Assembly (NCBI GenBank): GCA_902774275.1
Contig: CACYHN010000022.1
Coordinates: forward strand, 1 to 51,412
DNA from: an uncultured Bacteroidales bacterium
GTDB lineage: Bacteria; Bacteroidota; Bacteroidia; Bacteroidales; Bacteroidaceae
DNA length: 51,412 bases
Reading direction: 5' to 3'
The position numbers were made by a program, and so were the translations under genes. The notes under the pieces were generated by a model that was not told where the DNA came from, did not search any database, and saw only the letters and a program-made list of their open reading frames with translations. Positions 4,684-33,417 of the stretch are shown here, piece after piece; within the stretch, counting starts at the first letter, position 1, and the number at the start of each line of letters is the position of its first letter.

Positions 4684-4877
4684 GCCGGACATCCAGTTTT
4701 GGGACCATCAGTGGAGTGGCGTTAAGCGTAGCCCTCCGAAGGATCCCGTTAAGAACGGCGCATGTTTGACGAACGTTTCGGCCCCAAGGGGGGCGAATAA
4801 GGAGGAGTTCGACGTTTAGGGTCCGTAGGTGGGCGGAGTAGCCACGGAACGTTGCGTCCCAAGACTGGATGTCCGGC
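4684..4877 (+). repeat. Structured intergenic repeat RE1, candidate plus-strand RNA
   Basis: A 194-base element closed by inverted arms 4684-4705 and 4856-4877. They pair over 22 positions with one exception (T against G), which is a U-G wobble in plus-strand RNA. Inside are blocks shared with RE2 at 33226-33417: 4701-4731 (two differences), CCGTTAAGAAC at 4746-4756, and 4834-4860 (one difference). Small internal hairpins can be drawn at 4764-4774 (GTTT/GAAC) and 4781-4794 (GCCCC/GGGGC). The equivalent positions of RE2 pair with different bases. It sits between divergent genes, upstream of mnmG. It encodes no convincing protein. It may be a noncoding RNA family or a non-autonomous repeat; the family is not one I recognise. 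Confidence 0.6.
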
Positions 4878-4942
4878 GTAAGCCTCGGAACGTTGCGTCC
4901 TCAAACTGGATACTCTGCGCTGTTTCAAATACAAAGAGAAGC
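4878..4942 (+). repeat. Degenerate second right end of RE1 plus outer inverted arm
   Basis: Directly after RE1, 4883-4910 repeats the RE1 right end (GGAACGTTGCGTCC then CAAACTGGAT) with changes, as if an older copy's end remains. AATACAAAGAGA at 4928-4939 is the exact inverse of 4654-4665, on the other side of RE1. The whole of 4654-4939 can therefore fold as a nested hairpin. This suggests duplication or nested insertion in the past. Confidence 0.5.
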
Positions 4943-4975
4943 ACCCCTATTATCTTCCATTCCAAGATTTTGCAG

Positions 4976-4983
4976 TAAATTTG
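4976..4983 (+). promoter_or_regulatory. Candidate promoter -7 element for mnmG
   Basis: TAAATTTG is an exact TAnnTTTG box, 8 bases before the mnmG ATG at 4992. If used, the leader would be extremely short. No convincing TTTG lies about 20 bases upstream. Confidence 0.35.
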
Positions 4984-4991
4984 TAGCTTGT

Positions 4992-6866
4992 ATGGACTTT
5001 AAGTACGATGTGATTGTGATCGGTGCGGGCCACGCGGGTTGCGAGGCCGCCGCTGCCGCTGCACAGATGGGTTCCAAGACCTGTCTGATTACCATGGATA
5101 TGAACAAGATTGCACAAATGAGCTGCAATCCAGCAGTTGGCGGAATAGCTAAAGGACAGATTGTAAGAGAGATAGACGCACTTGGAGGCCACATGGGTCT
5201 GGTTACTGACAGCACAGCCATACAGTTCCGCATACTAAACCGCTCCAAAGGCCCCGCCATGTGGAGCCCCCGCGCACAGTGTGACCGAGCCAAGTTCATC
5301 TGGGCATGGCGCAATGTCCTGGAGAACCAGGAGAACCTGAACATCTGGCAGGACACCGTGACCGAACTGCTGGTAAAAGATAGCCAAGTTGTTGGTTTAA
5401 AGACACTTGAGGGTGCAGAATTCAGTTGCAAGTGCGTGGTGCTCACTGCCGGAACATTCCTTAACGGACTCATGCACATAGGCCGCGTCACCATGCCCGG
5501 CGGACGCATATCGGAACCTGCATCCTACCTGCTTACCGAGTCAATAACACGTCACGGCATACGCACCGGCCGCATGAAAACCGGCACACCAGTGCGTATA
5601 GACAGCCGCAGCGTACATTTTGAGGAGATGGAACGCCAGGACGGCGAGAATGATTTTCACCGTTTCTCATTCATGGGTCAGGAACGTCATCTAAAACAGA
5701 TGTGCTGCTGGACCACATATACCAATGAGCGGGTTCATGAAGTACTGCGCTCCGGACTTAAGGACTCCCCCCTATTCAACGGACAGATCAAGAGTATCGG
5801 TCCACGTTATTGCCCCAGTATAGAGACCAAACTGGTTACTTTCCCTGACAGGGACCAGCATCAGTTGTTCCTGGAACCTGAAGGCGAGAACACCAATGAG
5901 ATGTATCTGAACGGATTCTCATCATCAATGCCCATGGATATCCAGATAAAGGCATTGAAAGAGATTCCGGCATTCCGTGACCTGGTTATTTATCGCCCGG
6001 GATATGCCATAGAATATGACTACTTTGATCCAACCCAACTCAAGCATACTCTGGAATCAAAGGTTGTGACCGGTCTGTTCATGGCCGGACAGGTAAATGG
6101 TACCACAGGATACGAGGAGGCCGGCGGACAAGGAATACTGGCTGGCATCAATGCTCACATAAGTTGTCATGGCGGACAACCGTTCACCCTGGCACGTGAC
6201 GAAGGATATATAGGTGTGCTTGTTGATGACCTGATCACAAAAGGTGTTGATGAACCATACCGAATGTTCACCTCCAGGGCTGAGTACCGTATACTGCTGC
6301 GACAAGATGATGCGGATCTGCGTCTGACCGAGCGTGCGTACAACATAGGTCTGGCCACAAAGGAGCGTTATGAATTGATGCGCACCAAACGTGATGAGAT
6401 TAACCGTATTATAGATTTTGCCAGGAACTTCTCTGTAAAGCCCGCACTTATCAATGCTGCTCTTGAGCAGCTTGGCACCACCCCTCTGCGTGAGGGATGT
6501 AAACTGGCCGACCTTATAGAAAGGCCGCAGCTTACGCTTGATAATCTTTCAAGCCACATCAAAGCACTTAAGACCGAGCTTGACAAAACAGAGCCCGCAC
6601 GCAAGGATGAAATAATTGAGGCAGCGGAGATACTGATGAAATACAGCGGATACATAAGTCGCGAAAAGCTTATTGCAGATAAGATGAAACGTCTGGAGGA
6701 TATACGCATAAAGGGGCGCTTTGATTACAGCACACTTCAGTCACTCTCTACCGAGTGCCGTCAGAAACTTATCAAACATGACCCTGAGACCCTTGCTGAA
6801 GCAAGCCGTATTCCAGGAGTGTCACCCAGCGACATCAACGTCCTGCTGGTACTTCTGAACAGATAA
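4992..6866 (+). CDS. mnmG: tRNA uridine-5-carboxymethylaminomethyl modification enzyme MnmG (GidA)
   Basis: The start at 4992 gives 624 residues, matching the family (about 620-630) and placing the FAD-binding GAGHAG at 11-16 right after the first strand MDFKYDVIVI. An open frame continues 41 codons upstream into the repeat but shows no homology. Conserved family segments include SCNPAVGGIAKG, SPRAQCDRAKF, GRMKTGTPVRI, and GQVNGTTGYEEAGGQG. With MnmE it installs the carboxymethylaminomethyl group at U34 of certain tRNAs, using FAD and methylene-THF. Historically gidA lies near the replication origin in many bacteria, and a parS site follows this gene directly. Confidence 0.97.
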   Translation: MDFKYDVIVIGAGHAGCEAAAAAAQMGSKTCLITMDMNKIAQMSCNPAVGGIAKGQIVREIDALGGHMGLVTDSTAIQFRILNRSKGPAMWSPRAQCDRAKFIWAWRNVLENQENLNIWQDTVTELLVKDSQVVGLKTLEGAEFSCKCVVLTAGTFLNGLMHIGRVTMPGGRISEPASYLLTESITRHGIRTGRMKTGTPVRIDSRSVHFEEMERQDGENDFHRFSFMGQERHLKQMCCWTTYTNERVHEVLRSGLKDSPLFNGQIKSIGPRYCPSIETKLVTFPDRDQHQLFLEPEGENTNEMYLNGFSSSMPMDIQIKALKEIPAFRDLVIYRPGYAIEYDYFDPTQLKHTLESKVVTGLFMAGQVNGTTGYEEAGGQGILAGINAHISCHGGQPFTLARDEGYIGVLVDDLITKGVDEPYRMFTSRAEYRILLRQDDADLRLTERAYNIGLATKERYELMRTKRDEINRIIDFARNFSVKPALINAALEQLGTTPLREGCKLADLIERPQLTLDNLSSHIKALKTELDKTEPARKDEIIEAAEILMKYSGYISREKLIADKMKRLEDIRIKGRFDYSTLQSLSTECRQKLIKHDPETLAEASRIPGVSPSDINVLLVLLNR

Positions 6867-6875
6867 AAACAAAAA

Positions 6876-6891
6876 TGTTCCACGTGAAACA
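6876..6891. other. parS: parS chromosome-partitioning site (ParB/Spo0J binding)
   Basis: TGTTCCACGTGAAACA matches the bacterial parS consensus TGTTNCACGTGAAACA at every fixed position. It is a near-perfect palindrome around CACGTG, in the 36-base gap between mnmG and apt. ParB loads here as a CTP-dependent clamp and recruits ParA and SMC (family knowledge). parS sites cluster near origins. No parA/parB gene is in the window. Confidence 0.9.
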
Positions 6892-6902
6892 ATTATATTG
6901 AT

Positions 6903-7448
6903 ATGAGTAAAGAGACACTTATCAGCCATCTTAGAAATATTCCTGATTATCCTATGGAAGGTGTTCAGTTCAAGGATGTAACATCCTGGTTCATGAACCC
7001 TGAAGACCTTGCAGAGATTGTTGACTCACTCTATGAATTCTATAAGAACAAAGGCATAACAAAAGTCTGCGGAGTTGAATCAAGAGGCTTTATAATAGGT
7101 GCTGCACTGGCATACAGACTGAGTGCAGGATTCATCCTCATACGCAAACCTGGCAAACTACCATACGAGAAAGTAAGCCTGGAATACAAGAAAGAGTATG
7201 GATTTGACCGAATTGAGATGCATAAGGACTCAATTACTGAAAATGATGTGGTTCTGATCCACGATGACCTTCTTGCAACAGGAGGCACACTGCTGGCATC
7301 ATGTGAACTGGTCAAGACGTTCAAGCCAAAGAAGGTAATGGTAAACTGCATCATAGAGCTTACAAACTTTCACGCAAAAGAGAGATTTCCTGAGGATTGT
7401 CCCGTGGACAGTTATATTGCAATTGACGAATTTGACGGAGTTCAGTAA
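6903..7448 (+). CDS. apt: Adenine phosphoribosyltransferase
   Basis: A 181-residue protein, close to the family norm. The PRPP-binding loop is VVLIHDDLLATGGTL at 116-130, and the early IPDYPMEGVQFKDVT and ESRGFIIGAALA (59-70) are Apt signatures. It salvages adenine to AMP using PRPP in the cytoplasm. It is the first gene of the tight apt-uvrC-dtd-deoC run; its stop codon abuts the uvrC start with no gap. The parS site lies 11 bases upstream of its start, so its promoter must be inside mnmG or overlap parS. Confidence 0.96.
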   Translation: MSKETLISHLRNIPDYPMEGVQFKDVTSWFMNPEDLAEIVDSLYEFYKNKGITKVCGVESRGFIIGAALAYRLSAGFILIRKPGKLPYEKVSLEYKKEYGFDRIEMHKDSITENDVVLIHDDLLATGGTLLASCELVKTFKPKKVMVNCIIELTNFHAKERFPEDCPVDSYIAIDEFDGVQ

Positions 7449-9263
7449 TTGAAAGGAAAAGAGGCATACGATAAAAGGCTAAAACTGATTGTTCAGAACC
7501 TGCCTGAAAAACCCGGATGCTATCAGTATCTGGATGAACAGGGTACAGTCATATATGTAGGCAAAGCCAAAAACCTTAAGCGGAGGGTCACATCATATTT
7601 TATAAAAGAGAATCAGACCGATAAGACCCGAATGCTGGTAAGCAAGATATCGGACCTTAAATATATAGTGGTAGAAACGGAGTGGGATGCATTCCTGCTT
7701 GAGAATAACCTGATAAAGAGGTATAAACCACGCTATAACATTCTTCTAAAGGATGACAAGACATATCCGTCAATCTGTATTACGCGTGAGGAGTATCCAC
7801 GGGTATTCAAGACAAGAAAAATAATACGTAACGGATCAGAGTATTATGGACCGTTCAGTCATACCGGAACTCTAAACGGCCTGTTACAGATTGTATCGCA
7901 AGCTTATAAAGTCAGGACATGCCGTCTGCCGCTTTCTGAGGAATCCATAAAAGCAGGTAAATTCAAAGAGTGTCTTGAATATCACATAAAAAACTGCCCG
8001 GCTCCATGCATGGGGCAAATTTCACGGTCGGAATATAACGCACAGATAGCAGAGATCCGGGAGATTCTGAAAGGTCGCAGCCAGGAACTGACTAAATCGA
8101 TGATGCAGGAGATGAAACATCTGGCATCAGAAATGCGATTTGAGGAGGCACAGGTTGTAAAAGAACGGTTCGATACTATCATGGAGTTCCGTGAAAAGAG
8201 CCGTGTGGTGGATACAGGCCTTGACAATGTAGATGTCTATAACATAGACAATGATGAGGATGTGGTATTTGTAAACTATCTGCATGTGGCAGGCGGTTGC
8301 ATAAACCAGGCTTTTACATTTGAGTATAAGCGAAAGATGGATGAATCCCTGGATGAGATGCTTATGCTGGCCATAGTGGAGATGCGCAGCCGTTATCATA
8401 GCACTGCACGTGAGATAATAGTTCCGTTTTTACCGGAAGCGGAAATAACCGGCGTTACGTGGACCGTACCTCAAAAAGGAGAAAAGAAAAAACTATTGGA
8501 ACTCTCTGCTCTTAATGTCAAGCAGTACCGGGCCGACCGCCTGAAACGCAGTGACAAGCTCAACCCTGAACAGAAACATGTACGCCTGATGAAAGAATTG
8601 GGCACACTGCTGGGAATGGAGAAAACACCGCTGCGCATAGAATGTTTTGACAACTCACATATATCAGGAACAGATGCCGTAGCCGCATGTGTTGTCTATG
8701 AAAATGGCAAACCTTCCCGAAAGGATTACCGCCTGTATAACATAAAGAGCGGCGCAGGAGGCGATGATTACGGCTCAATGTATGAGGTCATGATGCGCCG
8801 TTGGATGCGAGCCGTAGAGGAGGGTAGTGCCATGCCGGATCTGGTGATTGTGGATGGCGGAAAAGGACAGATGTCAATAGCAAAAGAGGTGATCGATAAC
8901 CTGAATATCAGCATAAACATAGCAGGTCTGGTCAAAAACGCACACCACAAGACATCAGGGCTTCTGTACGGATTCCCGCAGATGGAGGTGGGAGTCAAAC
9001 CTGACAGCGAACTGTTCCGCCTACTGGAGCAGATGCAGGATGAGGTTCACAGGGTAGCCATATCATTCCATAAAAAGAAGCGCAGCAAGCGCCAGACCCA
9101 CTCAGAACTTACTGACATAAAGGGTATTGGAGAGAATACAGCCACAGCTCTGATCAAGAAGTTCAAGAGCGTGAAGAGGATTTCAGAAGCAAATCTGGAG
9201 GAACTTTCAAATGAGATAGGAAAAGCCAAGGCAGAAACAGTATATAATTGGTTTCATAAATGA
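7449..9263 (+). CDS. uvrC: Excinuclease ABC subunit C
   Basis: A 604-residue UvrC that starts with TTG immediately after the apt stop codon, implying translational coupling; no better ATG lies nearby. Domains in order: GIY-YIG nuclease (about 15-95, with GCYQYL and VIYVGKAKNLKRR) for the 3' incision; a cysteine-containing linker (about 155-190); a UVR motif for UvrB contact (about 215-245); an RNase H-like nuclease (about 400-540, starting IECFDNSHISG) for the 5' incision; and C-terminal helix-hairpin-helix (DIKGIGENTATALIKKF). It acts with UvrAB in nucleotide excision repair. The gene ends in a four-base overlap with dtd. Confidence 0.97.
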   Translation: MKGKEAYDKRLKLIVQNLPEKPGCYQYLDEQGTVIYVGKAKNLKRRVTSYFIKENQTDKTRMLVSKISDLKYIVVETEWDAFLLENNLIKRYKPRYNILLKDDKTYPSICITREEYPRVFKTRKIIRNGSEYYGPFSHTGTLNGLLQIVSQAYKVRTCRLPLSEESIKAGKFKECLEYHIKNCPAPCMGQISRSEYNAQIAEIREILKGRSQELTKSMMQEMKHLASEMRFEEAQVVKERFDTIMEFREKSRVVDTGLDNVDVYNIDNDEDVVFVNYLHVAGGCINQAFTFEYKRKMDESLDEMLMLAIVEMRSRYHSTAREIIVPFLPEAEITGVTWTVPQKGEKKKLLELSALNVKQYRADRLKRSDKLNPEQKHVRLMKELGTLLGMEKTPLRIECFDNSHISGTDAVAACVVYENGKPSRKDYRLYNIKSGAGGDDYGSMYEVMMRRWMRAVEEGSAMPDLVIVDGGKGQMSIAKEVIDNLNISINIAGLVKNAHHKTSGLLYGFPQMEVGVKPDSELFRLLEQMQDEVHRVAISFHKKKRSKRQTHSELTDIKGIGENTATALIKKFKSVKRISEANLEELSNEIGKAKAETVYNWFHK

Positions 9264-9712
9264 GAGCGGTATTACAAAGAGTAACTGAGGCCAGCGTAAA
9301 GGTGGACGGCAAGATTACAGGCGCAATAAAAGAGGGTCTGCTGATACTTGTAGGTGTAGAGGATGCGGATACACAGGAGGATATAGAGTGGCTCACAAAA
9401 AAGATTGCAGGATGCAGGATTTTCAATGATGAAAACGGCGTAATGAACCGATCGGTCATGGAAATAGGGGGTGGTCTGCTTGCAGTAAGCCAGTTCACTC
9501 TCATGGCCAGCACAAAAAAAGGAAACAGACCCTCATACATAAGGGCATCAAAAGGACCTGTTGCAGAACCTATGTATGAAAAGTTCTGTCAAACACTTGA
9601 AAAAGAGTCGGGAATTAAGGTTGAAAAAGGTATCTTTGGAGCTGATATGAAGGTTTCGTTGCTAAATGACGGCCCTGTAACGATTATAATGGATACAAAA
9701 AACAAGGAATAA
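9260..9712 (+). CDS. dtd: D-aminoacyl-tRNA deacylase
   Basis: A 150-residue protein of standard length. It carries the two family signatures: SQFTLMAST (about 74-82), and NDGPVTIIMDT near the C-terminus, which holds the Gly-cisPro motif forming the chiral filter at the dimer interface. It hydrolyses D-aminoacyl-tRNAs, and glycyl-tRNA-Ala, to keep D-amino acids out of proteins. Its ATG overlaps the uvrC stop (ATGA), and deoC follows after 3 bases, so it is an inner gene of the operon. Confidence 0.96.
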   Translation: MRAVLQRVTEASVKVDGKITGAIKEGLLILVGVEDADTQEDIEWLTKKIAGCRIFNDENGVMNRSVMEIGGGLLAVSQFTLMASTKKGNRPSYIRASKGPVAEPMYEKFCQTLEKESGIKVEKGIFGADMKVSLLNDGPVTIIMDTKNKE

Positions 9713-9715
9713 ATA

Positions 9716-10624
9716 ATGGAAATCTACGATGAAATGGAGGAACAGTCAGTAAATCAGCCAACTACTGACAAGTTCAATGAAGCTTTCAGCAAGTATAACA
9801 TGAAAGTTGATGCTGCATGGGTAAAAGCAACCGTTGAAAAAGCCAGAAAGGAGATTGCTGGGGTTCATGACAAGGAAACCCTCAAAAAGATCTACAGTTG
9901 CATAGACCTGACAACGCTCAAACCCACTGACAATGAAGATACTGTTCTTGCATTTGTTGAGAAAGTCAACCAGCTTGAGGACAAGTATCCTGATCTGCCG
10001 TCAGTTGCATCCATCTGCACCTGGCCGCTCTATGCAAAGACAGTAAGCAGTTCTCTAGAGGTAGAAAGCGTAAAAACATGCTGTGTATCAGGCGGTTTCC
10101 CTTCATCACAGACATTCTTTGAAGTCAAGATAGCTGAGACATCATTAGCCCTGCATGACGGAGCCGATGAGATAGACATAGTACAGAACGCCGGACATAT
10201 CCTTAACTCTGATTACGAGACCTTATCCGATGAGATTGATGAACTCAAGTCACTCTGTGCTGACAAGACACTCAAGGTTATACTTGAAACAGGTGCGCTG
10301 GGCTCACTTGACAATGTCAAGAAAGCTGCTCTTATAGCAATGTACTCCGGTGCTGATTTCATTAAGACCTCAACAGGAAAAGAAGTTCCTGGAGCAGATC
10401 CTGAGTCATTCTGCGTTATGTGCAAGACAGTAAGGGAATATGCCGATGAAACAGGCCGTACAATCGGAGTAAAGGCCGCGGGTGGCATCAGCACAGTAGA
10501 AGATGCCTTGCTCTACTGGACTATAGCAAAGATAGTTCTAGGAAAGGATTGGCTAAATAATACCCGTTTCCGCATTGGCGCAAGCCGGTTGGCAGACACC
10601 CTTTTACAGGAGATCATTGCCTGA
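9716..10624 (+). CDS. deoC: Deoxyribose-phosphate aldolase
   Basis: A 302-residue class I aldolase, longer than E. coli DeoC (259) by an N-terminal helical extension of about 45 residues, which is common in Bacteroidetes. The Schiff-base lysine is K217 in DFIKTSTGKEVPG, and GVKAAGGIST supplies the second conserved lysine. Other signatures are SICTWPLYAK near 99-108 and DEIDIVQNAGHI near 151-162. It cleaves 2-deoxyribose 5-phosphate to acetaldehyde and glyceraldehyde 3-phosphate in deoxynucleoside catabolism. It is the last gene of the apt-uvrC-dtd-deoC unit and converges on the polyprenyl synthase gene with 21 bases between them. Confidence 0.95.
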   Translation: MEIYDEMEEQSVNQPTTDKFNEAFSKYNMKVDAAWVKATVEKARKEIAGVHDKETLKKIYSCIDLTTLKPTDNEDTVLAFVEKVNQLEDKYPDLPSVASICTWPLYAKTVSSSLEVESVKTCCVSGGFPSSQTFFEVKIAETSLALHDGADEIDIVQNAGHILNSDYETLSDEIDELKSLCADKTLKVILETGALGSLDNVKKAALIAMYSGADFIKTSTGKEVPGADPESFCVMCKTVREYADETGRTIGVKAAGGISTVEDALLYWTIAKIVLGKDWLNNTRFRIGASRLADTLLQEIIA

Positions 10625-10645
10625 AATACAGATACTTAATTATTA

Positions 10646-11617
10646 TTACTTAGATCTATTGGTGATTAACTCCAGATAGGCAATAAATGCGCTACGGAGT
10701 TCAGGGGATATGAAAGCAGGCAGACCTTGGATTGCCTGCTTTTTCAGTTCCTCCATCTTGGATAGGGCATACTCTATTCCGCCATTGGAAACGGAGTATT
10801 CCGTAACCTCACGGATTTGATTCGGGGTAGCTTCAAGAGAACGTATGGCCCTGATGTGATTTGACCAATCCAAATCACTGTGAGTCAGTGCATAAATAGC
10901 TGGTAGTGTGAACTTTCCCTCTTTAAGGTCGTTGCCTGAGGGTTTACCGGTCTCGCTGCTGTCATGATAATCAAGTATATCATCCATTATCTGGAAACAG
11001 AGTCCAGCCACATGACCGAACTGTCTGAAAGCATTGATCTCCTGTTCCGATGCTCCGCTCAATAGGGCAGAAAGTGATGTGCATGAAGAGAACAGGATTG
11101 CCGTCTTCTTGGATATGATATCAAAGTAAAGGTCTTCAGAAAGGGTAGTTTCATCAAGGGCGTTCAACTGGGTGATTTCACCCTCAGACAAGGTTCCTAT
11201 AAGTGTGGAAAGTGCATCTACACTCTTTACATTGGCTGTTGCTGTAATCTGACGAAGTGCCATGGAAACGATATAGTCACCCAGAAGTACAGCCATTTTA
11301 TTATCATAGACCGCATTAGCTGATTTCTTGCCACGACGCTTGTCACTTTCATCAACAACATCATCATGGATAAGACTACCCTGATGCAGAAGCTCTACAG
11401 CCGAAGCCAGATGATAAGTGCTGTCACTGACATTTTCATAACACTTGGCCACAAGCAATACAAGTATGGGACGCATAAGTTTCCCTTTGCGTTCAAGCAG
11501 GAATTTGAGCAAGAGGTCAACACCGGGATTAGACGATGTAAACAACCGGGAGTATCTTTTTGAGAACTCCTGAAATTCCAACTCAATAGGAGCACATATC
11601 TGCTTTCTAAGATCCAT
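10646..11617 (-). CDS. ispB: Polyprenyl (octaprenyl-type) diphosphate synthase
   Basis: A 323-residue trans-isoprenyl diphosphate synthase. The first aspartate-rich motif is HDDVVDESDKRRG (about 89-101) and the second is MDDILDYHD (about 213-221), both needed to bind magnesium diphosphate. GKLMRP (about 50-55) is the usual IPP-binding region. It lengthens allylic diphosphates with IPP to make the side chain of menaquinone. The exact chain length cannot be told from sequence, so the gene symbol is provisional. It is divergent from polA, with 73 bases between the starts. Confidence 0.88.
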   Translation of the reverse strand: MDLRKQICAPIELEFQEFSKRYSRLFTSSNPGVDLLLKFLLERKGKLMRPILVLLVAKCYENVSDSTYHLASAVELLHQGSLIHDDVVDESDKRRGKKSANAVYDNKMAVLLGDYIVSMALRQITATANVKSVDALSTLIGTLSEGEITQLNALDETTLSEDLYFDIISKKTAILFSSCTSLSALLSGASEQEINAFRQFGHVAGLCFQIMDDILDYHDSSETGKPSGNDLKEGKFTLPAIYALTHSDLDWSNHIRAIRSLEATPNQIREVTEYSVSNGGIEYALSKMEELKKQAIQGLPAFISPELRSAFIAYLELITNRSK

Positions 11618-11625
11618 ACCGGCCG

Positions 11626-11633
11626 CAAAATTA
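11626..11633 (-). promoter_or_regulatory. Candidate promoter -7 element for the polyprenyl synthase
   Basis: Reads TAATTTTG on the minus strand (TAnnTTTG), 8 bases before the start codon. No clear -33 element. Confidence 0.35.
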
Positions 11634-11663
11634 GCAATAAATGTCCGTTTAGAGAAAAATTTG

Positions 11664-11671
11664 TACTTTTA
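11664..11671 (+). promoter_or_regulatory. Candidate promoter -7 element for polA
   Basis: TACTTTTA differs from TAnnTTTG only at the last base and lies 19 bases before the polA ATG at 11691. No -33 element is clear. Confidence 0.3.
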
Positions 11672-11690
11672 CGTATCAATACATATCTAT

Positions 11691-24666: not shown

Positions 24667-24999
24667 ATGAAACAGTTTATTGCTTTTTGCGGATTGGATT
24701 GTGAGGGGTGTCAGGCCCGGTTGGCTACTGTTAATGATGACGATGAACTGCGCAGGAAAGTGGCTCGGGAATGGTCGGAGCTTAATAAGGTTGAGATTAC
24801 TCCCGATATGATCAATTGCACCGGATGCCGCATTGAAGGCGCCAAGACTCCGTTCTGTGACTCGCTCTGTCCTATACGCAAGTGCGCCCGGGCTAAGTGT
24901 TTTGAGACCTGCGCTGACTGCAGCGATATGGAAAACTGCTCCAAGCTTGCTATGATTACATCAAACAATAAGGAAGCGTTATCAAATCTCAAAATGTAA
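24667..24999 (+). CDS. DUF3795 cysteine-rich protein
   Basis: A 110-residue protein, full length for DUF3795. The start ATG at 24667 is preferred over an in-frame GTG six bases upstream because MKQFIAFCGLDCEGC is the usual N-terminus. It has at least twelve cysteines in pairs and clusters (FCGLDCEGC, NCTGC, FCDSLCPIRKC, CFETCADC, NC), suggesting bound zinc or an iron-sulfur cluster. The function of the family is unknown. Its stop codon TAA at 24997-24999 is also the first part of an inverted repeat that runs into the following gap. Confidence 0.8.
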   Translation: MKQFIAFCGLDCEGCQARLATVNDDDELRRKVAREWSELNKVEITPDMINCTGCRIEGAKTPFCDSLCPIRKCARAKCFETCADCSDMENCSKLAMITSNNKEALSNLKM

Positions 25000-25138
25000 G
25001 GTGACGTGACGCAAAGTGGTATTTCTTTCAGTCGCTTCACTTGGTGAAAGCGTCCTTTCGGGCCGAGCGCGTTTTGCGTCGTTTCAACTCACCTTAGGGA
25101 GAGAATAGGCCGTACCTGCGTTTTGCTTCCCTAAGGTG
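24997..25138 (+). repeat. Two overlapping, mutually exclusive inverted repeats
   Basis: TAAGGTGA (24997-25004) can pair with TCACCTTA (25089-25096), closing a hairpin that also holds GACGCAAA/TTTGCGTC (25008-25015 and 25073-25080) and CGCTTCAC/GTGAAAGCG (25033-25040 and 25044-25052, one bulge). The segment 25090-25100 can instead pair exactly with 25128-25138 (11 base pairs). The two folds compete for 25090-25096. It lies between the DUF3795 and GNAT genes, ahead of the GNAT promoter box. It could be a terminator/antiterminator, a structured 3' end or a small repeat. Confidence 0.5.
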
Positions 25139-25168
25139 GGGGGGAGGAGAAAAACAGCGGATTTTATG

Positions 25169-25176
25169 TATTTTTG
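25169..25176 (+). promoter_or_regulatory. Candidate promoter -7 element for the GNAT-zinc ribbon gene
   Basis: TATTTTTG, an exact TAnnTTTG box, 19 bases before the ATG at 25196. No TTTG at the usual distance upstream. Confidence 0.45.
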
Positions 25177-25195
25177 TGGATAAATATAGACAGTT

Positions 25196-26077: not shown

Positions 26078-26589
26078 CTGATGAAATGTTGAGGGCCGTG
26101 AAAGGCGAGCTTGATGCGCAAGCCGTTTACAGGGAGGTAAAGCGGTCGGGCGATTTTGCGGGTTTTGCGCGGCGGTTCATGCATAGTGATGACGGGCGTG
26201 TGGCGCGGAATGCGTTCTGGGTGCTTACCAAGGCTACGGACCAGGAGCTCTCGCAGTTGCAGGGTATGCTTGGTGAACTGATAGACCTGGCGCTCAAGAC
26301 CGGACACTCGGCTGTGCGCAGGCTGTCGCTCAATATCATAGAGCGTCTAAAGATGGAAGAGGATGATCTGCGTACAGACTTTCTGGATTTCTGTCTGGAG
26401 CATATGGCCGATGCCGATGAACTGCCCGGCATCCAGTCCATCAGCATGAAGCTGGCTTATCGTATGTGCAAATTCTACCCGGAGCTTATGGACGAGTTCA
26501 AGGCCACGCTTGAATCGATGGAGCCGGACTTTTTCAAGCCGGCCGTCAACTGTGTCCGCAACCGCATATTGAACGGAAAACTCAAATAG
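26065..26589 (+). CDS. HEAT-repeat-like helical protein
   Basis: A 174-residue all-helical protein with paired helices that resemble HEAT repeats (FMHSDDGRVARNAFWVLTKATDQEL near 38-62, KTGHSAVRRLSLNIIERLKMEEDDL near 79-103, LPGIQSISMKLAYRMCKFYPELMDEFKATL near 118-147). Relatives are found as uncharacterised proteins in Bacteroidales. It has no signal peptide or membrane segment, so it is probably cytosolic and binds proteins. It overlaps the GNAT-zinc ribbon gene by 13 bases and converges on the acyltransferase gene. Confidence 0.65.
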   Translation: MAALTDEMLRAVKGELDAQAVYREVKRSGDFAGFARRFMHSDDGRVARNAFWVLTKATDQELSQLQGMLGELIDLALKTGHSAVRRLSLNIIERLKMEEDDLRTDFLDFCLEHMADADELPGIQSISMKLAYRMCKFYPELMDEFKATLESMEPDFFKPAVNCVRNRILNGKLK

Positions 26590-26590
26590 A

Positions 26591-26617
26591 GCACAAAGGG
26601 ATCTGATCCTTTTGTGT
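26591..26617. terminator. Bidirectional terminator-like hairpin
   Basis: GCACAAAGGGATC (26591-26603) pairs with GATCCTTTTGTGT (26605-26617) over 13 positions with two G-T wobbles. It sits between the converging HEAT-like and acyltransferase genes, where a shared terminator is expected. The T run after it is poor. Confidence 0.5.
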
Positions 26618-26639
26618 CGCTGGAAAGCTTAAATGAAGA

Positions 26640-27731
26640 TCATTTTTCACCAAATACGCACCATCGGATAAACGGGATGCGGTGCAGCACCTCGTAAATG
26701 AGTGGTGACAAGGTAAATACCGCAACTGTCAGGATAAGGTATATTGCAACCGGGGGCAGTTGGGTATATGTCTTCATCATATAACCAAGGCTGGCCACCA
26801 CAAGATAGTGCACAATGTAGAGCCCGTAACTGGTGCGGGTCAGATACTGTGAGAAGCCGTTGGTGCAGTCATATCGGGCATTAAACCAGCCCATCATGGC
26901 AAGGCACATAAGCCAACCGTAAAGGCAGTTAAGAGGTGAACCCATATACTCCGGTGATGTGTTGTTCTCTCCCCAAGTTGTTATAATGAGAATAACTCCT
27001 GATATCACTGAGGCTACCATAAGCGGAATCCAAGCCTTGTGTACCTTATTTTGAACTTCATCATGCGAGAATACAAAATATCCCAGCAGGAAAGTTATCA
27101 GATAGAACACAGGCTTATAGAGGTTTATCAGACCATCGGCCGAATCGGGACGAGGGTTCTTTACAAGCGTCTGCTCACAAAGCCAGAACAGTATTCCAAG
27201 CAGGATAATCACAACTATTCCGCTTTTACCGCATAATGTCCAGAGTTTGTCTTTACCGTCAACTTTGCGTACCAGTAAAAGAACTAAAGAGAGCAGCCAG
27301 AGCAGCTGAATAAACCACAACGGACCGGTTCCGCTCACTGCATAAATGCTGTATTTGACGGATATGGGCAAATCACTAACCACCGTACCGGCGGGAATGG
27401 CATTGAAATATCCAACCATCCAATGAAAAACAAAGAGGCCGATGGTTCCGGGCACAAGAAGCTTGCGGGTACGTGTCTTAAACCACTCCTTTCCGGTCTT
27501 GTTCTGCAATGAGTATCGGGCACTGATTCCAGCCAGAATGAACATAAGCGGCATAAACCAGGGATAAACAATGTACATAAGAATATCCTGGTACTGCTGT
27601 ACCTCAGGAAACTCCCCAAAGCCGCCTATGCCGCCAAATACACCCTTGTTGTTAAAGAAATAAATAACGTGATAAAACAGCACCAGCAACACCGTTGCCC
27701 AGCGCAGATTGTCAATCCAATGCTTTCTCAT
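26640..27731 (-). CDS. Membrane-bound acyltransferase (acyltransferase 3 family)
   Basis: A 363-residue protein with about ten membrane segments. It begins MRKHWIDNLRWATVLLVLFYHVIYFF, with the R and catalytic His of the acyltransferase 3 family (RWATVLLVLFYH; His21). Members move acyl groups such as acetyl or succinyl onto sugars or lipids at the cell surface; the target is unknown. The AbrB-like gene ahead of it overlaps its start by four bases, an uncommon partner for this family. It converges on the HEAT-like gene. Confidence 0.85.
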   Translation of the reverse strand: MRKHWIDNLRWATVLLVLFYHVIYFFNNKGVFGGIGGFGEFPEVQQYQDILMYIVYPWFMPLMFILAGISARYSLQNKTGKEWFKTRTRKLLVPGTIGLFVFHWMVGYFNAIPAGTVVSDLPISVKYSIYAVSGTGPLWFIQLLWLLSLVLLLVRKVDGKDKLWTLCGKSGIVVIILLGILFWLCEQTLVKNPRPDSADGLINLYKPVFYLITFLLGYFVFSHDEVQNKVHKAWIPLMVASVISGVILIITTWGENNTSPEYMGSPLNCLYGWLMCLAMMGWFNARYDCTNGFSQYLTRTSYGLYIVHYLVVASLGYMMKTYTQLPPVAIYLILTVAVFTLSPLIYEVLHRIPFIRWCVFGEK

Positions 27732-27943
27732 TTTGTAAGGCCATCCATAGCCTGATTGATAATGTTCTGGAATAACTCTGTCTTGAGCATGGCTATGCCC
27801 TTGTCATCGCCCAGCATCATAAGGGAATCACCCGGCTTGATATCGTACTGTTTACGTACGTCACGCGGGATTACAATCTGTCCCTTGTCGCCCACCTTCA
27901 CTACTCCAAAGATGTACTTTCCGTCTTTCTCTTGAATTGCCAT
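27728..27943 (-). CDS. AbrB/MazE/SpoVT-fold DNA-binding protein
   Basis: A 71-residue protein with the swapped-hairpin AbrB fold: VVKVGDKGQIVIPRDVRKQYDIKPGDSL at about 14-41 is the family core. Such proteins act as transition-state regulators or as antitoxins. No toxin gene (MazF, PIN) is adjacent. Instead it overlaps the acyltransferase start by four bases, so it may control its own two-gene unit. It is divergent from the ICMT-like gene, with 104 bases between them holding two opposed -7 boxes. Confidence 0.85.
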   Translation of the reverse strand: MAIQEKDGKYIFGVVKVGDKGQIVIPRDVRKQYDIKPGDSLMMLGDDKGIAMLKTELFQNIINQAMDGLTK

Positions 27944-27969
27944 TTGTGGTAAAAGTTAGAAATTTCCTA

Positions 27970-27977
27970 CAAATGTA
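27970..27977 (-). promoter_or_regulatory. Candidate promoter -7 element for the AbrB-acyltransferase unit
   Basis: TACATTTG on the minus strand, exact TAnnTTTG, 26 bases before the start codon. Confidence 0.45.
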
Positions 27978-28017
27978 ACGCTTTCTTTCAAAAGGAGCAC
28001 ATTCTTTATAGATTTAT

Positions 28018-28025
28018 TACTTTTG
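28018..28025 (+). promoter_or_regulatory. Candidate promoter -7 element for the ICMT-like gene
   Basis: TACTTTTG, an exact TAnnTTTG box, 22 bases before the ATG at 28048. No clear -33 element. Confidence 0.45.
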
Positions 28026-28047
28026 TACAAACAATACTGGTCAACTA

Positions 28048-28539
28048 ATGAAACAAATCAGAGAGATATTCGGTTACCTACTTGGGTTCCTTATGTTTAT
28101 AGTGGGTATTCCCGCAATCATGTGGCTGGCATCAGGCAAGCCGGAATTGGGTTTTAACTGTAGCTGGAATGTTATCGTGGGTATTATTATCGTTTTTTCA
28201 GGACTGATACTGAGTGTCTGGACCATCATTTATATGAAAGTTGTGGGCCGGGGCAACCCCATGGATGCTTTTGATCACGAGATAGCACCCCATACCCAAC
28301 ATCTGATGACCGGAGGCGTCTATCGCATCTGCCGGAACCCTATGCTTTTGGGTACATTCCTTTATCTGGCAGGCATCGTCCTGTTGCTTTTTTCTTGGCA
28401 ATCGGCCGTAGTGTGGGTGATTTTTGTAATCATTATGTCGTTCCAGGTATCATCTGAGGAGAAACGTCTGGAACGTGACTTTGGTCAGGAATATCTGGAT
28501 TACAGGAAACGCACCGGCCGATTTACACCCTGGCCATAA
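28048..28539 (+). CDS. Isoprenylcysteine carboxylmethyltransferase/PEMT-type membrane methyltransferase
   Basis: A 163-residue protein with four to five membrane segments and the ICMT/phospholipid methyltransferase signature at its C-terminal half: GVYRICRNPMLLGTFLYLAG (about 91-110), then EEKRLERDFGQEYLDYRKRTGRF (about 137-159). The RNP and EE...Y..Y motifs form the SAM and substrate site in the family. Bacteria lack prenylated CaaX proteins, so the natural substrate is probably a lipid or small molecule; it is not known. It stands alone with its own promoter box. Confidence 0.82.
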   Translation: MKQIREIFGYLLGFLMFIVGIPAIMWLASGKPELGFNCSWNVIVGIIIVFSGLILSVWTIIYMKVVGRGNPMDAFDHEIAPHTQHLMTGGVYRICRNPMLLGTFLYLAGIVLLLFSWQSAVVWVIFVIIMSFQVSSEEKRLERDFGQEYLDYRKRTGRFTPWP

Positions 28540-28604
28540 ATCTCCAGACTCCGTTGTTTTAGGCGGTTTTTTACTTTTTTGTTTTATGTCCGTATAATTG
28601 ACAG

Positions 28605-29162
28605 ATGATGGAGATTGACAGCGAAATAATTGAGAGATGCCGTCGTGGTGAAACGGGTGCTTTCAGGGCTGTGGTAGAGTCTTTTCAGCCTATGATATAT
28701 TCGCTGTCGGTCAAGATGCTGGCCGATGAAGAGGAAGCCAAGGACATAGTTCAGGACACTTTTATCAAGGCGTGGCAATCATTCAGCAGTTATGACGGAC
28801 GGTACAGCTTATCCACCTGGCTCTACACCATTGCTTCGAGGCTCTGTATAGACCGCATAAGGAAACAGCGTTTCAGTGAACCTATGAATGATGACATCGC
28901 GGTATTTGAGGGATATGCATCAGATTCCAGTCCGGACCGTCAGTTGGAGAGTAGAGAATGGGTATCGATAATAAAGGTACTGGCACAGAATCTAAGTAAG
29001 AAACAGAGGTTGGTTTTCACTTTGAGCCAGCTGGAAGGATTGGATACAGAAGAGATAATACGGATTACAGGAATGGATGCCACCCAGATCAAAAGCAACC
29101 TTTCACTGGCAAGGAAGAGTGTCCGCGAACAACTTATAAAACTTGGGTATGAAAAAGACTGA
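28605..29162 (+). CDS. ECF-type RNA polymerase sigma factor
   Basis: A 185-residue sigma-70 family factor with region 2 at about 20-90 (AKDIVQDTFIKAWQSF and YSLSTWLYTIASRLCIDRIRK) and region 4 at about 125-180 (LSKKQRLVFTLSQLEGLDTEEIIRITGM then QIKSNLSLARKSVREQL). Region 3 is absent, as in ECF factors. It is followed, with 14 bases of overlap, by a small single-pass membrane protein, then a lipoprotein, a common layout for a sigma factor and its membrane regulator in Bacteroidetes. What it senses is unknown. Confidence 0.88.
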   Translation: MMEIDSEIIERCRRGETGAFRAVVESFQPMIYSLSVKMLADEEEAKDIVQDTFIKAWQSFSSYDGRYSLSTWLYTIASRLCIDRIRKQRFSEPMNDDIAVFEGYASDSSPDRQLESREWVSIIKVLAQNLSKKQRLVFTLSQLEGLDTEEIIRITGMDATQIKSNLSLARKSVREQLIKLGYEKD

Positions 29163-29535
29163 AGACATACTTGAACGCCTCAAAGGGCAGATGCCGCAAG
29201 TCCCTGACGGTGATTTGCTGACAGAAAACATAATGCAGGCTATCACGGGTGCTGCAGCAGCCAAACCCGGCCGGATTGTTCCTTTATGGCTGAATGTATT
29301 GAGAGTGGTTTCATCGGTAGCGGCAGTATTCCTGATAGCGTTGTTAATAGGCTTGAAAGGTCCTGATGCAGAACTCTCGGAGAATGTTGCTGCTGTTGAC
29401 AATGTTGAGCAGATATATCGGCCTATTGCAACCGATGTCAATTCTGCCATCAGGATTATGGAAACCCGTAGTGAAAAGAGAAAAGCAAGACAAATAAGAC
29501 AAACTCAAATAAAGAATCTGTATGCGAAATTTTAA
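29149..29535 (+). CDS. Small single-pass membrane protein, probable anti-sigma factor
   Basis: A 128-residue protein from ATG 29149 (an in-frame TTG six bases upstream is less likely). An N-terminal cytosolic part of about 44 residues (MKKTEDILERLKGQMPQ...) is followed by one membrane segment (about 47-67, LNVLRVVSSVAAVFLIALLIGL) and an outer part ending in a basic run. It overlaps the sigma gene by 14 bases and the following lipoprotein gene by 14 bases. Position and topology suggest it holds the sigma factor at the membrane; no zinc-binding HxxxCxxC motif is seen, so this is inference. Confidence 0.65.
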   Translation: MKKTEDILERLKGQMPQVPDGDLLTENIMQAITGAAAAKPGRIVPLWLNVLRVVSSVAAVFLIALLIGLKGPDAELSENVAAVDNVEQIYRPIATDVNSAIRIMETRSEKRKARQIRQTQIKNLYAKF

Positions 29536-30028
29536 GATATCCATCCTGGTTGCGATAGCAGCCCTGATGATCACTTCATGTGACAAGAATGTAACTATGG
29601 TTACAGAGATTAATCGTGACGGAACATGTACAAGACAGGTTTCAACTGCCGATGATTGTCTCTTGGATGATGAATCATGGGAGCAGGTGGAATCTCAGGA
29701 TACTTCTGCCCATAAAAAAGTTACTTTGCGTCGTTCATTCAGCAGTGTTGAAGAGATGTCTGCAAATCCCATACTGAGTGTGTATGGTGAACCAGTCCGC
29801 TCAGAGGCTTATCTCAAAAAAACATTCAAGTGGTTCTATACTGATTATACCTTTACAGAAACATTTGCCGGTTGGGGAGATCATTTTGACATCCCTATTA
29901 CAAAGTATGTAAGCCAGGAAGAAGCCAGTTTCATGTGGACAGGATATCCTGACCTGGTAGAGGGGATGACGGGTATTGATATGGTTGAAAAGCTGGACAA
30001 GATGATGATATATCCAATCCGCCGGTGA
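29522..30028 (+). CDS. Lipoprotein of the sigma-factor operon (possible N-terminal half of a split gene)
   Basis: A 168-residue protein with a lipoprotein signal, MRNFKISILVAIAALMITSC (Cys20). It overlaps the anti-sigma gene by 14 bases. I do not recognise a domain. Its end looks abnormal: the last residues LDKMMIYPIRR come from a frame that stops at 30028, while the other frame reads DDDISNPPVNRDVF straight into the next open frame. The change falls at a repetitive GATGATGATATAT run (30001-30013), a likely slippage site. It may be one gene broken by a frameshift, or two coupled genes. Confidence 0.55.
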   Translation: MRNFKISILVAIAALMITSCDKNVTMVTEINRDGTCTRQVSTADDCLLDDESWEQVESQDTSAHKKVTLRRSFSSVEEMSANPILSVYGEPVRSEAYLKKTFKWFYTDYTFTETFAGWGDHFDIPITKYVSQEEASFMWTGYPDLVEGMTGIDMVEKLDKMMIYPIRR

Positions 30029-30471
30029 ATAGGGACGTTTTTATCTCTTTGAGGGATTCTGTCATAAAATTCGGTTGTGAAAACGGATATGATGAATTCA
30101 GTGAGGTAAAATTATTGCTCAATGATTATTTCAAATCAGACGCCTATAACATATTCTATTCTTCCAGTTCGATAGCAGCCGATGAATTCAGGGATAAATA
30201 TGAGGCTGAGTCTGACAGTATTTTCTATCCGGTATGTAATATAATATTCCTAAAGGCACCCTATTGCCTCAAAATGCCGGGACGTGTGACTGATGCCGGC
30301 CGCGGTACACTTGCTGACGGTGTCATACAGTACCGCTTTGAAGGAGGATTCCTTGTCGCAGGTGACTATACCATCACCGCAACATCCCGTGTGGCAAACG
30401 TCTGGGCGTTCATCCTCTCTGCCGCAGTAATCCTCCTCGCTTTGCTGAGCTTCTTCTATCGCAGAAAATAG
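30025..30471 (+). CDS. C-terminal-anchored protein, possible C-terminal half of the preceding lipoprotein
   Basis: 148 residues if started at GTG 30025, which overlaps the preceding stop (GTGA). It has no signal peptide but ends in one membrane segment and a basic tail (VWAFILSAAVILLALLSFFYRRK). Its body reads like an exported domain (YRFEGGFLVAGDYTITATSRVANVW), which fits better if the signal comes from the preceding frame. Together the two would make a lipoprotein of about 315 residues with a C-terminal membrane anchor. It is the last gene before the RE3 hairpin. Confidence 0.5.
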   Translation: MNRDVFISLRDSVIKFGCENGYDEFSEVKLLLNDYFKSDAYNIFYSSSSIAADEFRDKYEAESDSIFYPVCNIIFLKAPYCLKMPGRVTDAGRGTLADGVIQYRFEGGFLVAGDYTITATSRVANVWAFILSAAVILLALLSFFYRRK

Positions 30472-30478
30472 TACAATA

Positions 30479-30681
30479 GGGAGACCCTTCTGTGTCTTTT
30501 ATTAGGAGAACTTTCGGGGTATCAGTATCTGAAACTACGCGCTTCGCGCTATCCCTCCCACCGCTAAGCGGCGGGCCCCTCCCGTTCACAAGCCCACGGG
30601 CGGCCATGGTTTCCGATACCGATACCCCAAAAGTTCTGTGCATCTTGGAAGATTATCAAAAAAGACACAGAAGGGTCTCCC
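30479..30681. repeat. Long structured hairpin element RE3
   Basis: A 203-base element closed by a perfect 22-base inverted repeat (30479-30500 and 30660-30681). A second stem follows inside, 30507-30529 with 30615-30637, with two exceptions. Both exceptions are A-C type on the plus strand and so G-U wobbles on the minus strand. The GC-rich head holds small hairpins GCGCTTCGCGC (30539-30549), CCGCTAAGCGG (30561-30571) and CCCGT/ACGGG (30581-30600). It sits between the sigma operon and the permease gene. Its sequence is unrelated to RE1/RE2. It could be a very strong terminator, a structured RNA or a non-autonomous mobile repeat. Confidence 0.6.
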
Positions 30682-30738
30682 TGATGTGTCCAATTTTTTG
30701 ACACTTTCGGCTTGAAAAGCACGTTTTTGCAATTATTT

Positions 30739-30770
30739 CTTGGAGAGCGCAGTGACTGCCCTTACTTTTG
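30739..30770 (+). promoter_or_regulatory. Candidate promoter for the FtsX-type permease
   Basis: TACTTTTG at 30763-30770 is an exact -7 box. CTTG at 30739-30742, 20 bases upstream, serves as a -33 element. The ATG follows at 30795. Confidence 0.5.
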
Positions 30771-30794
30771 CCGCAAAGAATAACAGCAGTCCTT

Positions 30795-33182
30795 ATGTTC
30801 AGCCATTATCTCAAAATTGCACTCCGGAACATTGCCAAGTATAAGACCCAGAGCATTATTGCAGTATTGTCAATTGCCTTGGGAATGGTTTTCTGTTCAC
30901 TCACGCTCATGTGGATACGGTATGAACGGAGTTATGATTCATTCTACAGGGACGCTGATGACATTTATCTTGTAATGGGACTTAATCCTGCTTACATAGG
31001 AGAGGGTTTCAGTAGTTATACCTCATATCCTGACGGTGCATATCTGGCAGAGAAATACCCACAGATAGAGGATTTTGCAAGATGTATGTCCGTTAATTAC
31101 AATGTTGTCCGTGACGGGAACGTTGTTGCTGACCTGGCAGGTCTGTGCGTTGATGATAATTATCAGGATTTATTTGGTATCAAGGTATTGGAAGGTGAAA
31201 ATATTCTGCATCTGTCCAAGAATGAGGCTGCTTTGACCAAGACTCAGGCTGACAGACTGTTTGAAAGCGGTAACGCAGTAGGACAGATGTTGTTTACACA
31301 CCAAGGTTTTTTCAGAGTCAAATCCGTAATAGAGGATCCTCAGAAACCAACTTCATTTCCATATGATATGCTTACGGGATATGATTTGGAAATGTTTGAT
31401 AGCAGGGGTTATATATGTACAAATCTGTTTTTCAGAGTAAGTAATGAAAACCTGCACATGTTGGCCCGGAAAATAGAGAGTGATACCATTATCTATAATG
31501 GCTCAATCACATTATCCGATGGTAATACGTTTACATACAAAGAATCTAATGAAATGAACTATAAACTTCTGCCCTTAAAGAAAGTGAGGGAAGAAGCTAA
31601 TATTTACACTGATGTAAAATTGAATGTAAGATTACAGTATGTGTATATCCTGATGCTATTGGGCATTGTGTTGATTGTATGTGCTCTGACCAACTACTTT
31701 ACGCTGTTTGTCACCAAAATGAGAATGAGGGTCAGAGAGATTTCCTTACGTTATGCCAACGGAGCCGGTATGAGGCAGATTGTTATGCTCTTCTGTACTG
31801 AAATAATTATAGTTTTATTTCTGTCACTCTCATCAGGTGCCATTATATGTACGTTTGTCTTACCGTTCTTTAAAGTCCTCAGTGTAATGGACAAGTCCGT
31901 TACATTTATGATAATGAGTTATCTTCTGTCTGCAGCAATAATAGGGGCGTTGTCCGTATTGGTTGCATTGGCATTTATAGCTGTGACCGGGCGTAAACAG
32001 TTGGCACGGTATTTCGGCAACACCGAAAGCAATAGAGGAACAGCTGTCGGATACAAGATAAGCATAGGTTTCCAATTGGCTGTGAGCCTCTGCTCCATAT
32101 TCTGTTCAGTAGTTATCAGCAGACAGTTGAACCATCTGCTGCAATCATCAGATATGGGATATAAGAAACACAATGTCGGTTACTGCTATCAGTATGGTAT
32201 GTCAGAGACCGATGTCATGGCAGCAAGAGAAAAACTAAAGATGATGCCGGAGCTGGAAAAGGTTGTTTATGGATTTAATCCCACAAATTCTTATACTATA
32301 TATTCCTCGGTCAATGCTGATACTGTCAACGGGGAACCGAACACCATCAAAATAGTAATGATTAAAGCCAACAGGGATTATCTTGATTTGATTGAAGTGG
32401 AACCTGTGGCCGGTGAACTGTTCAGCCAGGAAGAGCGGAATAACGTAGTCCTGATAAATGAAACCCTTGCCAATATGCTGGGAGGAGCTGATCGGATTGT
32501 CGGAAAAGAGATATTCTCTCACGGTGATCCGCTAACTGTCAAGGGTGTTGTTAAGGACTTGTGTTATTCGAACCCCAAAAATGAGATTGCTCCGCTGGTT
32601 TATGAATACATGAAGGAGAATAATGAAACAGGGGTAAATGCACATTCCTATTTCCTGTTCAAATACAAGGAGGGTGTCAGATGGAATGATTTGCAGAATA
32701 AAATAGAGGAGACAATGCGTGAAATCAGGCCAAATGCCACGTATAATTCCCAAAATATGGAAATCAGTTATATGGCTTACATAAAGTCGGAGTCAATGTT
32801 AAGTTTACTATTGATAACCATCACCTTGATCTGTGTAATCGTAGCCATCAGCGGCCTTTACAGCATTGTTGCTCTGTTGTGCCAGAAACGCCGCAAGGAG
32901 ATTGCCATCCGCAAGATAAACGGTGCCAGGATGAGCGATATCCTCAGAATGTTCCTTAAAGAGTATCTGCCCATAATCATATTGAGCGCAATAGCCGCCT
33001 TCTCAGTAGGAGCAACTATAATGCACCGCTGGCTCTCCACCTACGTCCGCCAGACTCCCATCACCATTTGGGTATATCTCTCCGTATTCCTTTGCATGCT
33101 ACTGATCATTGCCGTGACCGTGTTCGGCAATATCCGCCGTGCAATGATTGAGAATCCTTCCGAAGTAATAAAAAGCGAATAA
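30795..33182 (+). CDS. ABC transporter permease, FtsX/MacB family
   Basis: The start at 30795 (795 residues) is chosen because MFSHYLKIALRNIAKYKTQS is the typical N-terminus. The plan is that of Bacteroidetes FtsX-like permeases: a first membrane segment (about 21-42), a periplasmic MacB-PCD domain (about 45-270), three membrane segments (about 285-400), a second segment plus periplasmic domain (about 425-670), and three C-terminal segments (about 680-790) containing KRRKEIAIRKINGARMSDILRMF, the coupling helix. It has no ATPase domain and no ATPase gene is next to it, so the partner must lie elsewhere. Members of this type often export peptides or respond to antimicrobial stress. Confidence 0.85.
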   Translation: MFSHYLKIALRNIAKYKTQSIIAVLSIALGMVFCSLTLMWIRYERSYDSFYRDADDIYLVMGLNPAYIGEGFSSYTSYPDGAYLAEKYPQIEDFARCMSVNYNVVRDGNVVADLAGLCVDDNYQDLFGIKVLEGENILHLSKNEAALTKTQADRLFESGNAVGQMLFTHQGFFRVKSVIEDPQKPTSFPYDMLTGYDLEMFDSRGYICTNLFFRVSNENLHMLARKIESDTIIYNGSITLSDGNTFTYKESNEMNYKLLPLKKVREEANIYTDVKLNVRLQYVYILMLLGIVLIVCALTNYFTLFVTKMRMRVREISLRYANGAGMRQIVMLFCTEIIIVLFLSLSSGAIICTFVLPFFKVLSVMDKSVTFMIMSYLLSAAIIGALSVLVALAFIAVTGRKQLARYFGNTESNRGTAVGYKISIGFQLAVSLCSIFCSVVISRQLNHLLQSSDMGYKKHNVGYCYQYGMSETDVMAAREKLKMMPELEKVVYGFNPTNSYTIYSSVNADTVNGEPNTIKIVMIKANRDYLDLIEVEPVAGELFSQEERNNVVLINETLANMLGGADRIVGKEIFSHGDPLTVKGVVKDLCYSNPKNEIAPLVYEYMKENNETGVNAHSYFLFKYKEGVRWNDLQNKIEETMREIRPNATYNSQNMEISYMAYIKSESMLSLLLITITLICVIVAISGLYSIVALLCQKRRKEIAIRKINGARMSDILRMFLKEYLPIIILSAIAAFSVGATIMHRWLSTYVRQTPITIWVYLSVFLCMLLIIAVTVFGNIRRAMIENPSEVIKSE

Positions 33183-33225
33183 CAGCAATTCTCTCCATTT
33201 GAACAAATCTCTCCATTTGCAGGAG

Positions 33226-33417
33226 CAGGACTATGGGGGTTGGGGACCATCAGTGAAGTGGCGTAAAGCGTAGGACCACCGAGATGCCGTTAAGAACATC
33301 GTTGCGTACAACGACCGTTAAGCCCCGTAGGGGATTAAAAAGGAGGCGATCGATGTTTAGGCATCGAATGGTCCGGAGTAGCCACGGAACGTTGTGTCCC
33401 CAACCCCTATAGTCCTG
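33226..33417 (+). repeat. Structured intergenic repeat RE2, candidate plus-strand RNA
   Basis: A 192-base relative of RE1 (4684-4877). Closing arms 33226-33247 and 33396-33417 pair over 22 positions with one G-U wobble on the plus strand, yet their outer sequence is wholly different from the RE1 arms. Shared blocks are 33243-33273, CCGTTAAGAAC at 33287-33297 and 33374-33400. Internal hairpins: GTTG/CAAC (33301-33312), CCCC/GGGG (33323-33333) and CGATG/CATCG (33351-33366). It lies after the permease gene and before the gltS promoter. It has no coding potential. Two copies of CTCTCCATTT sit just upstream (33191-33200 and 33209-33218). Confidence 0.6.

Follow-up and report, generated by a model that had tools for sequence, protein, structure and literature searches.

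What are the two long, foldable stretches that lie between genes in a 51,412-nucleotide (nt) contig of an uncultured Bacteroidales bacterium (GenBank assembly GCA_902774275.1, contig CACYHN010000022.1; this whole stretch is hereafter called the window), and what does selection act on in them? A preliminary description had read these stretches, RE1 and RE2, as a two-copy repeat whose closing stems covary, in the manner of a selected RNA or cruciform structure. Here, using alignments and covariance models of related copies, we report that they belong to a family of gene-less, intergenic rods that keep their pairing while their sequence changes and that are present or absent between sister species. 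We judge it rather probable that both stretches represent a small non-autonomous mobile element of Bacteroidota in which selection acts on the folded plus strand, as RNA more likely than as DNA.

The coordinates, lengths (194 and 192 nt) and shared internal blocks of RE1 and RE2 were reproduced on re-checking. In each copy the 22-nt outer arms are 95% inverse-complementary with one wobble, and the plus strand folds better than any of 200 dinucleotide shuffles (z of −6.6 for RE1 and −8.4 for RE2). The minus strand of RE2 folds about equally well (z of −8.2), so the strand cannot be chosen from folding alone. Far from being confined to two copies, the repeat gives 11 covariance-model matches in its own draft genome, 8 of them full copies and the rest including halves split by an IS110-family element. 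Rfam contains no family that reaches its cut-off for RE1 or RE2, in agreement with the earlier failure to recognise one; a relaxed comparison covered RE1, with RE2 compared at the cut-off only. PVT1_6, lying over RE1 on the minus strand at 14.4 bits, was rejected as below the Rfam cut-off, as were snR50, SNORD70 and STnc410, which also fall outside the elements.

To define the structure we used 73 distinct near-full copies from loci chosen by BLAST score, which are not a random sample. All but L069, which has an internal duplication, form a 72-row alignment made independently of structure (A2), and their 72 cores gave the covariance model R1; a further alignment of distant copies (A3) was fitted to the structure. 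The plus strand forms one long rod comprising an outer stem, short helices, internal loops and a tip hairpin. The outer stem is free in sequence with its pairing kept, 16 of 24 pairs being changed on both sides among eight copies, and the internal loops between helices are fixed in sequence (CATCAGTG / CGGAACGTTG, GCGTTAAGCG / GAGTAGCC and GTTAAGAAC / GTTTAG). The RNAalifold core has 39 pairs, 28 of them changed on both sides in some row, and 56 pairs when the outer stem is included. In A2, 97.2% of cells are paired against 84.4% after shuffling, and 355 cells are double-changed against 103. By every measure, pair counts exceed those of 500 shuffles, and they collapse when columns are slid by 1–3 positions in A2, A3 and the outer stem; the pairing under sequence change first seen in RE1 and RE2 is thus borne out in larger alignments, far above both kinds of control. 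Unguided folding returned a single-hairpin rod for 45/72 genus cores and 10/14 distant copies, compared with 5/140 shuffles. At the tip, the strand AAGGAGGAGTT was considered as a Shine–Dalgarno sequence and this idea was rejected: the strand faces GACGAnCG, and both sides are swapped jointly for true pairs (CCCC/GGGG in L143 and L159, GGCAT/ATGCC in L005), with covariation of columns 78 and 106. Such joint replacement indicates that pairing, not the AAGGAGGAGTT motif, is conserved.

Three observations favour RNA as the selected form. A tree-based covariation null of our own design (100 replicates, simplified from the R-scape idea) yielded 11 significant column pairs, comprising 6 from the 39-pair structure, an additional standard pair at columns (78,106) with 92% pairing, and four non-standard pairs that include an A-G/G-A switch at columns (84,98). 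Within pairs in the genus, G-U cells clearly outnumber A-C cells (237 against 15, of 2,780 cells), also once three G-U-dominated pairs are set aside (67 against 13), and in A3 the counts are 120 G-U and 42 A-C. Several distant copies, moreover, have a T run after the rod. The genus bias, the non-standard covarying pair and the T run together make selection on RNA likely, as first proposed, if unproven, given that these signs could also arise from a single strand of DNA in folded form. The earlier suggestion that the wobbles fit a plus-strand transcript likewise agrees with the G-U lean in the genus, and only weakly with the distant copies.

The family extends well beyond this genome, and all copy counts are lower bounds, as scoring stopped at 80 candidates per genome with R1 in the genus, at 7 in the order- and phylum-wide samples and at 13 with BLAST. 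By BLAST, 22/61 genomes match, all of them inside the 37 of the genus; R1 matches 29 of these 37 (49 times in G007, 25 times in both G009 and G026), so that further copies in related genomes, whose absence would have spoken against a family, are many. An order-wide sample gave R1 matches in 8/393 genomes, the own genome included. Among 84,980 species genomes, a DNA pattern taken from the tip occurs in 119 stretches; all 80 for which a title is listed are from Bacteroidota, nearly all from Bacteroidales, and their carriers include Draconibacterium, Ancylomarina, Puteibacter, Rikenellaceae, Cryptobacteroides and rumen Bacteroidaceae. Of these 80 loci, R1 matched 79, with 88 matches in all, and had none in L310. 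These matches served to build a second model, R2, which gave 1 to 23 matches in each of 16 genomes picked for carrying the tip pattern, among them 6 in Draconibacterium sediminis and 7 in D. aestuarii; phylum-wide it matched 8/395 sampled genomes, own included (7/394 others, of which two are in the same family and five outside the order). On reading, the distant copies contain GCGTTAAG and the motifs CTGTYTGA..GAGTT. Units in Draconibacterium (L324, L335, L329, L365, L375 and L383) are much longer, with conservation on both sides beyond the rod, and end in the inverted outer ends TTGTCTT..CCAGAC / GTCTGGAAAGACAA.

The element is intergenic and has no orientation bias. By simple open-reading-frame calling, 19 of the 73 copies are co-oriented with both neighbours, 16 lie between divergent genes, 15 are opposite, 13 convergent and 10 undecided; a position upstream of plus-strand genes, correctly noted for both window copies, is therefore not a general rule. 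Among 30 mnmG loci, a long element match lies upstream in 10 (7 plus, 3 minus), a fragment in 2 and none in 18, and the element occupies 1 of the 28 gltS loci examined. Flank searches from ten filled loci recovered 40 orthologous sites; an element can be recognised in 11 of them and not in the other 29 (one of these is masked), and presence or absence varies between sister species. The cleanest empty site emerges from comparison of G000 (L277) with G021 (L156), where an insert of about 220 bp is bounded by GTTTCC..GCAG and GCGGAGTCCC, with no exact target duplication. Inverted duplication of the target on insertion is suggested by G002, which has no left outer arm at its mnmG site; contrary to this idea, the cleanest empty site has no such outer arm.

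Near-identical cores at different loci and exchange in place are also apparent. G021 and G022 carry, at loci that are not orthologous, cores with 98% identity. Three sister species compared at the L008 locus have left flanks 95–98% identical and nearly the same outer arm around cores that are only 70–83% identical, and two of the three have two extra tandem 3′ ends. Shared flanks and arm with divergent cores and extra 3′ ends indicate that sites are re-occupied or converted in place. The tandem extra 3′ ends are about 42 bp each (L149:2501-2790 and L129:2501-2790), in an arrangement like that of RE1, whose counterpart is listed in the table. Flank complementarity outside the core exceeds the 95th percentile of mismatched flanks in 27/71 copies and the 99th in 7. 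A nested unit that has a REP-like hairpin (GGGGACGGTTC...) outside the element is common to L006 and L148, two loci of different species. REP-like hairpins also stand in place of the element at the orthologous empty sites L269, L276 and L282.

The element is itself a target of other mobile DNA. Within the own genome, one fixed position of the tip is occupied by an IS110-family element (PF01548, PF02371, NF033542), complete in one contig and present as contig ends in C32, C56 and C63; in RE1 the strand that follows the tip hairpin (AATAAGGAGGAGTT) contains the position used in those other copies. At a different fixed tip point, G008, G009, G016 and G020 carry a second element (L476-L481), the first 40 residues of which have no Pfam match and on reading appear IS110-like. 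IS110 is present in a minority of copies, and full copies exist without it. In G602, three copies (L456, L460 and L461) lie inside a broken insertion sequence of about 900 bp with inverted ends GGGATCTTCAG / CTGAATATCCC; it retains DDE transposase remnants, with a Pfam match below the cut-off, and its transposase pieces have no match in any other locus compared.

The features of the two window copies are collected below. The extent first given for RE1 was correct for the element proper and omitted both the tandem 3′-end remnant and another inverted repeat lying farther out at the mnmG site. By Pfam, MnmG/GidA follows RE1 and a sodium/glutamate symporter (gltS) follows RE2; a GNAT acetyltransferase on the minus strand precedes RE1 and a MacB/FtsX permease on the plus strand precedes RE2.

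Table 1. Positions of RE1, RE2 and associated features (window coordinates unless a contig is named).
Feature	Position	Strand	Remark
Further outer inverted repeat at mnmG site, left arm	4636-4665	.	
Conserved left-end sequence TTCCCTTTGCAGTA, 5′ of RE1 stem	4670-4683	+	73-copy consensus, aligned flanks
RE1, full element copy	4684-4877	+	model core 4701-4860
RE1 outer stem 5′ arm	4684-4705	+	22-nt inverse match to 4856-4877
RE1 tip hairpin	4776-4797	+	
RE1 outer stem 3′ arm	4856-4877	+	inverse match to 4684-4705
Extra 3′-end remnant of another copy, tandem after RE1	4880-4919	+	
Further outer inverted repeat at mnmG site, right arm	4928-4957	.	
RE2, full element copy	33226-33417	+	model core 33243-33400
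RE2 outer stem 5′ arm	33226-33247	+	22-nt inverse match to 33396-33417
RE2 outer stem 3′ arm	33396-33417	+	inverse match to 33226-33247
IS110-family element, whole, in contig C2	G000:C2:60582-62319		L033

The element carries no gene of its own, and we propose that a protein encoded elsewhere would recognise its plus strand in the folded state, RNA being a likelier form than single-stranded DNA. Such a trans-acting protein would spread copies into intergenic sites that are often already palindromic, after which the arms could stay complementary through selection, template switching or both. Several results weigh against this proposal. Only 6/39 structure pairs pass the tree-based null, and the four other significant pairs are non-standard. 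Without two G-U-dominated pairs, the distant-copy bias is weak (57 G-U against 42 A-C), and the most distant copies fold unguided to the rod in only 4/10 cases. One empty site only is clean; the other pairs shown are not. The nearest copy comes from the same genome in 10/72 cases (null 4.4, p 0.03), which explains little of the sample, and recent within-genome bursts were accordingly rejected as its main source.

A more specific version of the proposal, which we regard as unlikely, is a mobile RNA family across the phylum, in which the rod would be transcribed, bound at its fixed internal loops by a protein and returned to DNA through RNA templating or RNA guidance, with older copies displaced in place and 3′-end remnants left behind. 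Only a little more probable, in our estimate, is that RNA is irrelevant and a DNA-hairpin enzyme moves a folded single strand, much as for REPINs or integron attC sites. A long near-palindrome with asymmetric conserved ends and the REP-like hairpins nested around some copies would suit such a substrate, and in a folded DNA strand, too, G-T is better tolerated than A-C. Y1 transposases, however, do not track the element. The Y1 family PF01797, and with it mobilisation by REP-associated tyrosine transposases, was rejected: it occurs in 13/26 genomes tested, but among near-complete carriers G007 (at 97% completeness and with 49 model matches), G214 and G110 lack it, and 5/8 genus genomes that have no model match possess it; the search covered this family, leaving tyrosine recombinases and other HUH enzymes aside. 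A miniature element shortened from an ordinary DDE insertion sequence is quite improbable. The inverted outer ends of the Draconibacterium units and the G602 copies within a broken insertion sequence, with its below-cut-off transposase remnants, are what it would predict; yet outer arms are locus-specific and differ between copies, with the both-sided changes in 16/24 outer pairs described above, and arms so variable provide no constant terminal repeat for one transposase. The unmatched G602 transposase pieces argue in the same direction, and the single clean empty site, which shows no exact target duplication, may do so too.

The folded form could also owe nothing to structural selection. Template switching in palindromes can keep outer arms perfect, and if it evened the arms it would mimic covariation, with arms that agree within a locus and differ between loci, as observed. 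We consider this very improbable as a full account: short inner helices between invariant internal loops also covary, and neither the non-standard A-G/G-A switch nor the genus excess of G-U over A-C is in keeping with it. Least credible is a cis-regulatory role for the adjacent mnmG and gltS genes, as leader, riboswitch or terminator. RE1 and RE2 do both precede plus-strand genes, and a T run beyond the rod, seen in several distant copies, resembles an intrinsic terminator, but copies are oriented at random to genes, no neighbour recurs widely, the gltS site is filled in 1/28 loci and the mnmG copy is inverted in 3/10.

No linked partner or carrier came to light. The 119 loci hold 727 open reading frames of at least 100 amino acids, and the largest cluster of their proteins extends over 6 loci. 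Carriage by phages was rejected, since the 18 viral stretches that match a 16-base pattern include none that match the model (0/18) and are taken as chance. A literature search aimed at this repeat family found no recognisable description of it.

Flavo-1 RNA (RF01705) is a structured RNA candidate of Bacteroidota. Its model has 76 positions and was rejected as an identity for the element: 0/13 carrier genomes reach the cut-off, and the own genome has no match even at E 10. Weak matches up to E 10 occur in 12/13 carrier genomes and 10/14 controls, and none of those listed coincides with a listed element position. Structured RNA is also tied to mobility in the IS110 family with its bridge RNAs, and IS110-type elements insert here; they do so, however, at fixed tip points of a minority of copies, and full copies stand without them. 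Small palindromic mobile repeats such as ERIC, bcr1 and BOX are further natural comparisons. Like repeats of this kind (PMC2229807; for bcr1, PMC2267715), the element is short, gene-less, interspersed, intergenic and foldable; with the ERIC/bcr1 type it shares a multi-copy intergenic palindrome with filled and empty orthologous sites. It differs in sequence (similarity being compared through Rfam alone) and in host group, here several orders of one phylum, and has fixed internal-loop motifs and measured covariation. Two reports describe REP sequences as intergenic palindromes serving as landing sites of IS110-type elements (PMC1525189, PMC11208160), as the element does here; REPs measure 20–40 bp (PMC3733652), in contrast to the roughly 190 nt of this element, whose distribution is unlike that of Y1 transposases. 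A survey of human microbiomes reports 250 palindromic candidates (PMC8040213), and the present family may be among them.

Collectively, these results describe a covarying rod with fixed loops that reaches tens of copies per genome, has relatives in several orders of a phylum prominent in animal guts and lies below Rfam cut-offs. The element is a natural target of two IS110-type elements, and copies split at contig ends explain some of the assembly breaks in these genomes. The family points to a putative protein partner and to a way of spreading.

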